A stretch of DNA of 64,000 nt from an uncultured Rikenellaceae bacterium (GTDB lineage Bacteria; Bacteroidota; Bacteroidia; Bacteroidales; Rikenellaceae), in assembly GCA_944321925.1 (NCBI GenBank), contig CALUND010000016.1, forward strand, positions 62,001 to 126,000, given 5' to 3'. Within the stretch, counting starts at the first letter, position 1. Every line of letters begins with the position of its first letter. The translations under genes were made by a program, and so were the position numbers. The notes below the pieces were generated by a model, which was not told where the DNA came from, did no database searches, and was given only the letters and a program-made list of their open reading frames with translations. Positions 5,272 to 56,075 of this stretch are shown in pieces.

Positions 5272-5775
5272 TTATTCCACGGGTTCGGGAACAGGGGTTT
5301 CCATATTATGTGGAGCAGGACCTTTATGCCCTCGGCCCGGTTTGCCCTTACCCATCCCTTGTTGAGGAGCCTCTCCAGCAGGTCTCGGACCGCGACGGGC
5401 TGCCATTTTCGAGCGGTTGTCCACCATCTGCTGGTACTGTTCTTCGGTGAGAATCTTTTTCAGTTTGGCGTCGTTGGCCTCTCGTTTCTGTTCGATGGCT
5501 TTCATACGGGCTTCCCGTTCTTTGGCCATCTGTTCGCGGTAGGCCTGTTGCTCTTTGATGTTTTGCAGATTGAGTTCGTAGATCTCTTTTTGTTGTTTGT
5601 CCGAGAGGTTGAGCTGCGTTGTCATGCGTTGAGTCATGGCTTCAGCAATCTGTTCCGGAGTCTTTTCCTGTGGAGGAGTTTGTCTGCCTCTGCCGGCATG
5701 CGGTTGTTGTGCCGATACGGCGGTTGCTGCGAGCATCATCACGGATGCAAAGGCGGCATAAATCATTCGTTTCAT
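5272..5775 (-). CDS. DUF4890-like (Spy/CpxP-like) periplasmic protein
   Basis: A 167-residue secreted protein: signal peptide of about 22 residues ending AVSAQ, then a helical, Gln/Lys/Glu-rich core (TEQ/MTTQLNLS and LTEEQYQQMVD segments) and a basic Gly/Pro/His-rich tail. The helical core with LTEEQ-type repeats matches DUF4890 proteins and resembles the Spy/CpxP periplasmic chaperone fold. The open frame extends upstream of 5775, but the start at 5773-5775 gives a proper signal peptide. A -7 element lies at 5833-5840. It sits 131 bp after the LytTR regulator gene, so it is a plausible target of that regulator (inference). Confidence 0.75.
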   Translation of the reverse strand: MKRMIYAAFASVMMLAATAVSAQQPHAGRGRQTPPQEKTPEQIAEAMTQRMTTQLNLSDKQQKEIYELNLQNIKEQQAYREQMAKEREARMKAIEQKREANDAKLKKILTEEQYQQMVDNRSKMAARRGPRPAGEAPQQGMGKGKPGRGHKGPAPHNMETPVPEPVE

Positions 5776-5832
5776 TTTTCTTTGTTTTACAGATTTTGAA
5801 TTTTGGGGTACAGCCCCTTTTTGTTTGCTGTA

Positions 5833-51569: not shown

Positions 51570-52301
51570 TCAGGAGTTCCAGATTTCCCATGATTTGTCG
51601 GCCTGGTCGATGAGCATCTGGGCTCCGTTGACGGTTCGGGCTCCCCGTTTTTCTCCTGCTGCGAGAAACTGGGTCTGGGCCGGGTTGTAGATCAGGTCGA
51701 ACAGGAAATGGCCCTCCCCGATGGCATCGTAGGGCAGAGCGGGTGCTTCGTTCGTGTGGGGGTACATGCCGACGGGGGTGGTGTTGACAATCAGTCGGTG
51801 TTCCGTGACGATTTCCCGGGTCAGTTCGTCGTAGGTCAGACGGTCGCTCCCTGCCGTGCGGGAGACCATGCGGTATCGTATACCGAGGCTCTCCAGTACG
51901 AACCGGACAGCTTCCGACGCACCGCCTGTGCCCAGAACGAGAGCATCGGGACGTTGTGTGCCGATCAGTGTTTCGAGTGAGCGACGGAACCCGTAGGCAT
52001 CGGTATTGTAACCGGTCAGTCGTCCCCGGTCGATGCGGATACAGTTTACGGCGCCGATTTGTCGGGCCTCTTCGGAAAGGGCGTCGAGGTAGGGGATAAC
52101 TTGTCGTTTGTAGGGAATGGTTACGTTCACGCCACATAGGTCGCTCTTTTCGCGGAGCAGCGCGGGAAGATCTTCGATTGTTTCGAGCGGGAAATTTTCG
52201 TAGGAGGCGTCGACAATCGCTTCCCGGGCGAATTTGTCGGCGAAGTACCCGACCGAGAAGGAGTGGCCGAGCGGAAATCCGATCAATCCGAAGCGTCTCA
52301 T
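51570..52301 (-). CDS. aroE: Shikimate dehydrogenase
   Basis: 243 residues. The substrate-binding GFPLGHSFSVGYF, GVNVTIPYKRQV (catalytic Lys) and the nucleotide-binding GTGGASEAVRFVL are clear. It reduces 3-dehydroshikimate to shikimate with NADPH in aromatic amino-acid synthesis. It starts 4 bp after the YqaA-like gene, so both probably share the promoter at 52935-52942. Confidence 0.95.
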   Translation of the reverse strand: MRRFGLIGFPLGHSFSVGYFADKFAREAIVDASYENFPLETIEDLPALLREKSDLCGVNVTIPYKRQVIPYLDALSEEARQIGAVNCIRIDRGRLTGYNTDAYGFRRSLETLIGTQRPDALVLGTGGASEAVRFVLESLGIRYRMVSRTAGSDRLTYDELTREIVTEHRLIVNTTPVGMYPHTNEAPALPYDAIGEGHFLFDLIYNPAQTQFLAAGEKRGARTVNGAQMLIDQADKSWEIWNS

Positions 52302-52305
52302 AACG

Positions 52306-52914
52306 TCAGAGCAGTTCTTTGACCAGCACGAAAGAGCCTATCAATAGGACAGTGAATGCGATGGCCAGCAGGTTGAAATATTTGTCGATGAATGTCTTGA
52401 TCGGAGCGCCGAACTTCCAGATCAACCAGCTGAAGAGGAAGAATCTCAAGCCGCGGGCTACGATCGAGGCGATCATGAACATGACGAAGTTGATGTGGAA
52501 TACTCCTCCCGCAATGGTGAATAATTTATAAGGTATGGGCGTGAACCCTGCGGTGAAGATTACCCAGAAATTGTACTCCTCGAACATTGCCTGCACGCGT
52601 TCGTAAGCCTCCAGGGAGAAGACATGCCGGTAGAAAAAGTCGGCGATGGCGGTGTATTCGCCGGCCGTATTTTGCCAGAGGAAGAATCCGATCGCATAAC
52701 CACCCGCAGCCCCGAGCAACGATCCTGCGAGACAGAGCGTGGCATAACGGAACGATCGGGACGGATTGCCCAGACACAGTGCAATGAGAAGAATGTCTGG
52801 AGGAATTGGGAAGAAGCTCGATTCCGCAAAGGCCAATAGGAAGAGTGCGAGTCCGCCCCATCGGGAGTCGCTCCAGCCCAGCACCCAGTCGTAACAACGT
52901 CGGACGATATTCAT
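52306..52914 (-). CDS. YqaA-like (SNARE-associated/DedA-type) membrane protein
   Basis: 202 residues with about five membrane segments. The LAFAESSFFPIPPDILLIAL and FTPIPYKLFTIAGGVFHINF stretches (motifs EssFFPIPPD and PIPYK) match the YqaA branch of the VTT/DedA superfamily, thought to move lipids or support envelope homeostasis. The ATG at 52912-52914 is preferred over 52926 because the latter would lie about four bases from the predicted transcript start. It is followed by aroE. Confidence 0.88.
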   Translation of the reverse strand: MNIVRRCYDWVLGWSDSRWGGLALFLLAFAESSFFPIPPDILLIALCLGNPSRSFRYATLCLAGSLLGAAGGYAIGFFLWQNTAGEYTAIADFFYRHVFSLEAYERVQAMFEEYNFWVIFTAGFTPIPYKLFTIAGGVFHINFVMFMIASIVARGLRFFLFSWLIWKFGAPIKTFIDKYFNLLAIAFTVLLIGSFVLVKELL

Positions 52915-52934
52915 GTGTCGTTTCAATTTCGAGG

Positions 52935-52942
52935 CAAAGCTA
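52935..52942 (-). promoter_or_regulatory. -7 element TAGCTTTG for yqaA-aroE
   Basis: Exact box on minus, about 21 bases before the yqaA ATG. The tandem repeat begins about 48 bases upstream of it. No -33 is visible. Confidence 0.6.
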
Positions 52943-52989
52943 AGAATTTCCGCTCATTTCTTTCGCTTCAGCGTCGTATTTTTCTTCAA

Positions 52990-53041
52990 GGCGTATTTCT
53001 TCGGCGTATTTCTTCGGCGTATTTCTTCGGCGTATTTCTTC
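52990..53041. repeat. 13-bp tandem repeat, block 1 (four perfect units)
   Basis: Unit GGCGTATTTCTTC repeated four times exactly with no interruptions. A degenerate fifth copy (GTCGTATTTTTCTTC) precedes it at about 52973-52987. Confidence 0.95.
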
Positions 53042-53050
53042 GGGACGATC

Positions 53051-53098
53051 TCTCCGAGGTGTTTCTCCGAGGTGTTTCTCCGAGGTGTTTCTCCGAGG
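53051..53098. repeat. 13-bp tandem repeat, block 2 (about 3.7 units)
   Basis: Unit TCTCCGAGGTGTT repeated 3.7 times. Rotated, it differs from the block 1 unit at about four of 13 positions, so the two blocks are related. Confidence 0.93.
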
Positions 53099-53333
53099 CC
53101 GTATTTTGTTCTTTTTTGTTTGAGTTGGGACGCTTTGTCGATTGGCATGTAAGCGTCGTCTTCCTTTTAGCCCTTATGAAATCGAACTTCTTCCCGATTT
53201 CACCGAATATCTTTTTCTGTAAATTTTCATGGGATCGGTTGAAACGTTTCTATTTAGGAATAGACTGAAACGTTATGGAGCGAGGACTCTTTGGAACGTT
53301 GCGGAAGAAAAGATCTTTTTTGCCATCTCCACC

Positions 53334-53370
53334 GAAAAAAAGAAAGAGGGACGTATTGCGTCCCTCTTTC
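53334..53370 (-). terminator. Rho-independent terminator of the BACON lipoprotein gene
   Basis: A 12-bp stem (53342-53353 with 53359-53370, five-base loop) followed on minus by seven or eight T. Confidence 0.9.
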
Positions 53371-53390
53371 CGTATTGGTGTTATCCGATT

Positions 53391-56075
53391 TTAGAAAGTC
53401 GGAGTCTTGATGCATCGTACGGATACTGCACATGCACCTTGGTTGTAGTCGGAACGGTACTGCCAGTAGAATTCTCCTTTGACATCCGCTTGCATCCCTT
53501 TCCCATAGTAACGATTAAAGGTTTCGTCTGCATTGGATCGCGGTTGGCATTCGTGATAGTGGCAAGCCGATCCGTTGCGGACCAGTGTACCGACGTAATT
53601 GCGCAGACCTGCAGCAGGGAAGAAGATGGTTTCGCTTTCGCCCGGGATGACAGCATCCTGGTTGCCGCCCTCTTCACGTCCACCATTGGTGTTATTATCC
53701 TGAGTGAAGAAGTGGAATCCACCTTCGAATGTGGGGAAGAATACAGATGCAGCGGCGGCATTCCAACCGTCGTCAGTTCCATCTTCTTTCAGCGGCGGAG
53801 CAATAATGGTTCCTTCAGCCCAACCATCGTATGCTTCGATACAGTTCCATCTCCATGGACCTATTGACCCCCAACCTGTAGCAGCGGCATCGCCGTGCGA
53901 TGTGATGAAGCCGAAGTTTTTACCGTTCGGGATTTGCCATCCTACAGGGCACGGGTCGTAAATCGATTTCTGACCAACGTCACTCGAAATGTCGCTCGAG
54001 TTACCCCAGAGGTGTCCCCACGGGTTGCGAATATCGGAAGGATTCATTGCAGATCCATGACCATAATTATCGGCTGCACCCGACTCATTGTTGTGGAGCC
54101 AGTGGTAGGGATAACCCTTGTCACCTTTGATGAAGATATGCGGATGTTCGATAGCATACTGTACGTTCTCAGCTACAATTTCACCTAAAGAAGAGACTGT
54201 CTTAATCGCACCTGCAGAACTTTGATAACCATTGGTGGTCGGTTCTGTTTCATCCAAGGCACGGTAGTAGTAGTAAATAACCGCATTTGTTCCGTAATTG
54301 CCGAAGCCGTAGTTGTCGTCCTTACCATCGATGCTTTCGCTGTACGATCCTTGGGCAGCTCCCGGGAACGGGTCTTTACGACCCCACTGGTACATCAGAC
54401 CGAACGATTTCTGGATGTCGTCTTCGAGTCCGCTCGTACCGTCGCTCAGAGCACCGAGGTTACGGTCCATCCACGTAGCAGCCAAAGCATAAGTGCTTCC
54501 ACCGATCTCATATTGATGCTGAGGATCTTCCGGATTGTAATTGTCGAACCACAGGTGCCAGCTCCAAAGAACGGTCTTCACCTCAGCACCGTATTTGTCT
54601 ACTTGTTTGTCGATAGCACCGATAACAGCGTTGCCGGGAGTGCCGTTCGTCGTGAAGTAGAGGTAATCGTTTGCATAAACTACGTCGGATACGATACCTG
54701 TTGTATCGGTAGCCCAGATGATTTCACCCCAGTTCGGATTCATCTTGACGGGGAGGATAAATTCCGTTTCGGCGCCGTTACCCTGGATCGTTGCGTTGAT
54801 CTTATAGGTACCAGCCTGCGGAACGATATAGCAGTTGGCCGTACCGTTCTCGCTCAGATTGATTGCTTGTTGCATTTGAGAAACCGGAATGGTCTTAACG
54901 ATATCGTCGAATCCTTCCTGGCTTGCGGTAACGGTGATCGTTCCCTCGCGTTTTGTACCGGTGTTGGTTTCGTAGTTGATCGTGAGAACTCCGTCAGCAG
55001 CAGAACCGGACAACCAGCTATCAGAACCGACAACGGTAAGTGTGCCGTTCGACTCATAAGTGATGGTTGTACTACCTGCTTCGTCGATTACGGCGATCGG
55101 GTCTTCCGAGATGTTCAGATAGAGACCAGCACCGCGCTGTGTGATCCTGAATTCTACTGTTTGATCACCGCAAGCGAAAGTAACCTTGCCCGTACGATCT
55201 GCACTTTCCGTATTTTCCGATACGGCAATGATCACTTCTGCTGCATCGGTAGTAGCGCCACCCTCAGCCGGATCGATCGTGATCCAATCGACGTCGGATA
55301 CGGCTGTCCATGCGGTATTGGCAGTCAGGCTGGCGATGATGTCATCGGCCGTAGCCTCTATGGTTACAGCACCTTCTGTGAAGCGGTCGCTTGTGACTTC
55401 CAATTGGTAGCTGTTCGCAGCCTGGACAACGGTGATCTTTTTCGAGAACTCTTCGATGTATTTGTCATCTGTCGGCGTGATGAAGATCGTATCTGCACGC
55501 TCTTCGAACAGAGGAGATTCCGGAGCCTTTACAGTGATCTGGTCACCGTTTTCGTTGAGCTCGACGGTCAACCAGTCGCTCAGATTGGACCAATCCCATG
55601 CGATGTTGGTTGTTACGCTGATGGTTGCAGTGCCTCCCTTTGCTTCCAGCGGAATCGACGTCTTGTCAACGACCAGAGCCGGCTCGATACCGATTTGAGT
55701 GATTCGCAGGGTGAACGTAACGCCTTCCGAATTCTGGAATACCACGTCAGCCTTACGAACATCTTCGTCTTTGTTGGCAAGAACCGTAACCATCAGGCTG
55801 TTGCCATTCGATGACGGTTCAACTTCTACCCAAGTTTCCGTAGGATTAGCCGTCCAGGTGGAGGTGGAGGTAACCGTTACGATGTAACGATTGCCCTCTG
55901 CGGCTACGTTGTTGATAACTTGAGGATTCGTCTTAATTGAAGGCTCAGAGGATGTGTCATCTTGTTTACATCCCTGGAACAAAGCCAAGACGAGTGTGAA
56001 GGTCGCAAAAAGAGACACGGCTTTCCATGCTCTCTTTGTGAAGCTCACATTCCGAGAATAGTTAGATGTTTGCAT
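53391..56075 (-). CDS. BACON-domain surface lipoprotein
   Basis: 894 residues. The N-terminus has a basic start, a hydrophobic segment and lipobox FQGC followed by KQDD, which resembles the lipoprotein export signal that sends Bacteroidota proteins to the cell surface. Four tandem BACON-like beta-sandwich domains follow (about 50-410; each ends in a pattern such as FTLRITQ or VEFRITQRG). The last ~450 residues resemble Fibrobacter major-paralogue domains (DPCPVGWQIPNGKNF, AAGLRNYVG, SVRCIK). A role in glycan or mucin binding is inferred from BACON proteins in other Bacteroidota. A -7 box lies at 56142-56149. Confidence 0.85.
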   Translation of the reverse strand: MQTSNYSRNVSFTKRAWKAVSLFATFTLVLALFQGCKQDDTSSEPSIKTNPQVINNVAAEGNRYIVTVTSTSTWTANPTETWVEVEPSSNGNSLMVTVLANKDEDVRKADVVFQNSEGVTFTLRITQIGIEPALVVDKTSIPLEAKGGTATISVTTNIAWDWSNLSDWLTVELNENGDQITVKAPESPLFEERADTIFITPTDDKYIEEFSKKITVVQAANSYQLEVTSDRFTEGAVTIEATADDIIASLTANTAWTAVSDVDWITIDPAEGGATTDAAEVIIAVSENTESADRTGKVTFACGDQTVEFRITQRGAGLYLNISEDPIAVIDEAGSTTITYESNGTLTVVGSDSWLSGSAADGVLTINYETNTGTKREGTITVTASQEGFDDIVKTIPVSQMQQAINLSENGTANCYIVPQAGTYKINATIQGNGAETEFILPVKMNPNWGEIIWATDTTGIVSDVVYANDYLYFTTNGTPGNAVIGAIDKQVDKYGAEVKTVLWSWHLWFDNYNPEDPQHQYEIGGSTYALAATWMDRNLGALSDGTSGLEDDIQKSFGLMYQWGRKDPFPGAAQGSYSESIDGKDDNYGFGNYGTNAVIYYYYRALDETEPTTNGYQSSAGAIKTVSSLGEIVAENVQYAIEHPHIFIKGDKGYPYHWLHNNESGAADNYGHGSAMNPSDIRNPWGHLWGNSSDISSDVGQKSIYDPCPVGWQIPNGKNFGFITSHGDAAATGWGSIGPWRWNCIEAYDGWAEGTIIAPPLKEDGTDDGWNAAAASVFFPTFEGGFHFFTQDNNTNGGREEGGNQDAVIPGESETIFFPAAGLRNYVGTLVRNGSACHYHECQPRSNADETFNRYYGKGMQADVKGEFYWQYRSDYNQGACAVSVRCIKTPTF

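Follow-up and report, generated by a model that had tools for sequence, protein, structure and literature searches.

A two-block 13-bp tandem array upstream of a VTT-domain gene and aroE in an uncultured Rikenellaceae bacterium, most likely a young intergenic minisatellite

Introduction

In minisatellites, or variable-number tandem repeats (VNTRs), a unit of about 6-100 bp is repeated head to tail. Slippage or unequal recombination makes and homogenises such arrays, perfect copies indicate recent events, and perfect repeats are themselves prone to slippage. Tandem repeats of phase-variable promoters overlap the promoter boxes or sit between them, and phase variation typically concerns surface or stress genes, while promoter switching in the bacterial group studied here occurs mostly by DNA inversion. 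In Mycobacterium tuberculosis, promoter tandem repeats (PTRs) are described as varying within isogenic populations (PMC12817950). As well, an account of 144 tandem repeats in Mycoplasma hyopneumoniae, in which qPCR was used, links repeats in upstream regions with expression differences (PMC5179023).

Here, we describe a tandem array from G000, a Rikenellaceae-like MAG of 1.9 Mb in 18 contigs with an estimated completeness of 84.9%. The window, meaning the whole stretch of DNA that was analysed, comprises 64,000 nucleotides of contig CALUND010000016.1 (positions 62,001 to 126,000). A literature search found no paper naming this array.

Results

Anatomy and register of the array

The array is composed of two neighboring blocks of 13-bp repeats. 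Block 1 (52990..53043) carries 4.2 copies of the unit GGCGTATTTCTTC and block 2 (53051..53098) carries 3.7 copies of the unit TCTCCGAGGTGTT, with 100% identity inside each block (TRF scores of 108 and 96, respectively) and about eight units of 13 bp in total. Four exact copies of the first unit span 52990-53041, and nine bases (53042-53050) separate them from block 2, exactly as the original prediction had described; both the sequence and TRF agree on this structure. The longest exact self-match in the window at shifts of 8-30 extends over 41 bases, at shift 13 and from position 52990, compared with 12 bases once the array was excised and 9-11 bases in 10 dinucleotide shuffles of the window, indicating that the array did not arise by chance. 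In addition, CGTCGTATTTTTCTTC before the array and GCCGTATTTTGTTC after it resemble, by eye, worn units of block 1.

According to a repeat-family analysis, the start-to-start spacings of the units through both blocks are 13, 13, 13, 14, 13, and 13. The single extra base lies in the joining unit, a 14-nt junction step GGGACGATCTCTCC (53042..53055) recognized from these spacings and the sequence, which joins the blocks in nearly the same register; otherwise, both blocks follow one register. In their best rotation, the units of the two blocks agree at 9/13 positions and differ at 4/13, and this agreement, equalled by 1221/20000 permuted units, is only suggestive of a common origin. Since permuted units can match as well, the letters hint at a common origin of the halves less than the common register and period do. 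The shared register with its one 14-nt step, together with the nine shared bases, is probably better explained by a single array, each half of which was homogenised locally, than by two arrays of independent origin. The blocks had been predicted to reflect recent and separate expansion. Recent local expansion is supported by the perfect identity inside the blocks, the absence of the array from the same place in relatives, and its uniqueness in the genome, whereas the separateness has to be modified in favor of this single array homogenised in halves.

Gene setting and putative promoter

On the - strand, the array is preceded by a BACON-domain gene and a terminator-like hairpin, and followed by a TAnnTTTG box, a VTT-domain gene, and AroE. 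The BACON-domain protein gene (53391-56075, - strand; BACON domains PF13004, Pfam) ends upstream of a hairpin with a 13-pair stem and a T run (53341..53371, - strand), which lies between the gene and the array; two terminator-like sites were found, compared with 0.9 expected in shuffles. The VTT-domain gene (52306..52914, - strand), which we take to be yqaA, a name adopted from the original prediction, is an ORF predicted to encode a DedA-like membrane protein of 202 aa (Pfam PF09335, E 2.4e-11). Four bases after it lies the ORF of aroE (51570..52301, - strand; Pfam PF08501, E 1e-18), predicted to encode shikimate dehydrogenase. Both genes are of the housekeeping type.

A putative -7 box of the yqaA promoter, TAGCTTTG (TAnnTTTG), is located at 52935..52942 on the - strand and reads CAAAGCTA on the given strand; it was assigned by motif position and by its recurrence near yqaA. 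On the - strand of the spacer, no TTG was found at a distance of 17-22 bases from any TAnnTTTG box, and no -33 box was recognized there. Within this spacer of 476 bases, the array lies upstream of the -7-like box, with its near end at 48 and its far end at 156 bases, in agreement with the predicted distance of about 50-160 bases.

Occurrence elsewhere in the genome

A tandem pair of unit 1 (at most 3 mismatches of 26) occurs nowhere else in the genome, and a dispersed repeat of the REP or MITE type was rejected because the pair is confined to a single place. Many dispersed copies had been named beforehand as the sign of a generic repeat, and the genome-wide search for runs of the 13-mer did not find them. 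With at most one mismatch, unit 1 has eight further single sites versus one for the reversed control; these sites exceed the control, yet all of them are isolated near-matches, with no exact copy among them. Under the same threshold, unit 2 has six further sites versus nine for the reversed control. Clean arrays with a period of 7-30 and at least three copies number three in the 844,051 bases of G000 scanned with TRF (41 pieces, window included), namely both blocks and a 21-bp array contained in a 545-codon frame. An origin from a mobile element was rejected, as no match to the spacer was found in phage or plasmid collections. Likewise, a structured RNA was rejected, because the RNA fold of the region is not unusual (z -1.12) and no Rfam match was found for the array region.

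Another repeat, of about 83 bp and ending in a -7-like box TATATTTG, is dispersed in G000 and was also seen in L204-L210. Its core GATGCGGCTCGGCATAG (at most one mismatch) occurs at 11 places in G000, and TAnnTTTG follows the core by 56-67 bases in 10/11 of these copies, typically just before an ORF. Four copies stand in tandem outside the window (G000:C16:3775-4116, corresponding to L057 3775-4116), where they precede a 524-aa ORF named antiporter-like by eye. The core is present in 0/10 congeners, while G016 and G019 carry one copy each, that of G019 having the same form and that of G016 lying inside a reading frame. From its sequence, this repeat looks like a putative dispersed promoter cassette.

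Comparison with relatives

The VTT protein was matched in 26 of the 61 genomes searched, own included, with strong matches in 7/10 congeners, weak matches in G002 and G010, and none in G006; the nearest named relatives of yqaA belong to Alistipes sp. and Rikenellaceae MAGs, which suggests the family of G000. TRF detected no clean period-13 array in the surroundings of yqaA relatives, covered by 99 loci (679,017 bases) that came from two relative searches (19 and 80 loci) and are not all independent; for instance, L007 and L065 agree in length and upstream sequence and appear to be the same contig. The period-13 rows reported among these loci, in L017 (63% match), L018, L090, L114, and L131, are not clean. 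Moreover, a search with the full-length spacer recovered no homologue from the 10 congeners (best non-self E 0.029). A TAnnTTTG box lies at most 90 nt from the yqaA match start in 23/37 yqaA loci, own included, relative to a background in the window of 0.24 per kb per strand. Judged from these sequence comparisons, the putative core promoter, unlike the array, recurs among yqaA loci.

Five rows in the 679 kb of relatives' loci are other clean arrays of short period whose sequences are unrelated, suggesting that such arrays form sporadically. Near a yqaA relative in L077, a Tidjanibacter MAG, two neighboring clean arrays are present, GCTTATTGG x3.7 (9 bp) and TCCCTAACAC x4.0 (10 bp), at 5676-5708 and 5793-5832. 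The gene that precedes yqaA in G003, the nearest congener to possess yqaA, terminates in an acidic P-E-D repeat, which is encoded by a 9-bp array (L003 1385-1426).

A degenerate array with a 13-bp period lies 183-266 bases upstream of yqaA in G020, a member of another genus (41 bp x2, 85%), and adjoins the stop of an upstream gene that is not the one seen in G000; no yqaA match was found in the only other examined member of that genus. The best 13-mers of the G020 array agree with unit 2 at 11/13 and with unit 1 at 10/13 positions, values reached by 38/500 and 151/500 shuffles, respectively, so that the similarity is not clearly above shuffles. G157 possesses a clean 13-bp array, AAACAACGTCGGG x4.2, after a transporter-like gene (L033 1501-1555); it runs into the contig end (G157:C225 end), so that the array may be longer. 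On the basis of their sequences, we treat the G020 and G157 arrays as separate arrays of similar composition.

Discussion

By anatomy, with 13-bp units repeated 4.2 and 3.7 times at 100% identity, the array is a bacterial minisatellite, and one genome of the species is covered here. We consider it very probably a young, lineage-specific intergenic minisatellite that arose by slippage, most likely without a dedicated role. A 13-bp segment in the spacer may have been duplicated and expanded via slipped-strand replication or unequal recombination between neighboring copies, after which the copies in the two halves would have diverged. Later slippage would have homogenised each half apart, leaving the two perfect blocks and the one 14-nt hybrid step that are observed, and the perfect copies suggest that these events were recent. 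The array lies upstream of, and outside, the -7 region of yqaA-aroE, and an influence on expression, if there is one, would be a by-product. This reading is favored by the perfect arrays in one register, the restriction of the unit-1 tandem pair to this place, the lack of a homologous spacer in the 10 congeners and of a clean period-13 array in the 99 loci, and the retention of the TAnnTTTG box near the gene in 23 of the 37 yqaA loci, own included. Sporadic unrelated arrays in relatives, the ordinary RNA fold, and the lack of an Rfam match point in the same direction. However, clean short-period arrays are rare in the 844,051 bases of G000 scanned, so the position of this one close to a promoter could carry meaning, and G020 also has a degenerate 13-bp-period array upstream of yqaA.

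The array might instead be a copy-number-variable promoter-proximal element, in which slippage alters the number of units and tunes yqaA-aroE transcription. The location just upstream of the likely promoter, the slippage-prone nature of perfect repeats, and the precedent described for M. tuberculosis promoter tandem repeats (PMC12817950) would favor such an element, but the 48 bases between the -7-like box and the array place it upstream of the core promoter, where it neither separates nor overlaps the boxes, no clean array occurs in relatives with a recognizable yqaA -7 box, and the targets would be a DedA-like protein and AroE instead of surface or stress genes, which makes it improbable. 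A version in which such a slippage-driven element tunes yqaA-aroE and 13-bp arrays have arisen repeatedly upstream of yqaA, in the window genome and in G020, seems distinctly improbable from the sequences compared. Each 13-mer could also be a candidate operator, forming a repeated regulator-binding site, as seven to eight tandem near-copies lie upstream of the promoter and near-matches of unit 1 occur singly eight more times versus one for the reversed control. We regard this as highly improbable, because the units of the halves differ at 4/13 positions, unit 2 does not exceed its control, unit 1 forms no tandem pair at any further site in the genome, and a spacing of 13 bp does not hold sites on one helix face. 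Nor is the array kept upstream of orthologues or at other genes, the only possible exceptions being the degenerate G020 array and the single near-matches of unit 1. Position and comparison with relatives both speak against a required part of the promoter, and the predicted promoter element or protein-binding site is not upheld, since the array lies outside the core promoter, has no clean counterpart upstream of the boxed yqaA genes of relatives, and has no paired or tandem units elsewhere in the genome.

A Rikenellaceae-wide 13-bp repeat family that includes G020 and G157 would explain why their purine-rich units look alike. A degenerate pattern search, however, returned matches in 3/150 genomes (including the window's own genome and the source of the pattern) versus 1/150 with a control match, and a second one returned 4/250 genomes versus 3/250 for the reversed control. 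As for the G157 unit, 1046 and 3290 of 5000 permutations gave a similarity at least as high. With matches at about the control level and unit similarity within shuffles or nearly so, we rejected a family-wide element as having a very slim chance of being correct. The slimmest chance of all was given to the array lying inside a small coding gene, either a 64-aa frame (52954-53148, - strand) or a 117-aa frame (52915-53268, + strand). The array interrupts neither frame, and a purine-rich stretch precedes the ATG of the 64-aa frame, but the 13-bp unit shifts the frame with every copy, and the two units contain no stop in any of the six frames, a property shared by 49.5% of the 13-mers sampled from the window. 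Neither frame has a Pfam match and the congeners have no homologous spacer, and a small coding gene was rejected for want of a protein family and for the frame-shifting unit.

The young minisatellite without a dedicated role remains the reading we prefer. As such, the array could serve to type strains of an uncultured Rikenellaceae species and otherwise matters little. If its copy number varied and altered yqaA-aroE, it would represent promoter-proximal tandem-repeat variation in this group. Like the PTRs of M. tuberculosis (PMC12817950), it is a tandem array upstream of a gene, although it lies upstream of the -7 region and is described here from its sequence. With the intergenic repeats described for Mycoplasma hyopneumoniae it shares a place in a 5' upstream region, whereas that account covers 144 repeats with qPCR and the present one a single locus (PMC5179023). 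We do not claim membership in the promoter-repeat class for an array that lies beyond the core promoter. The closest likeness in form is to the bacterial minisatellites or VNTR loci used in MLVA typing, with a short unit and perfect, head-to-tail, intergenic, and lineage-specific copies, from which it differs in having two homogenised blocks in one register.
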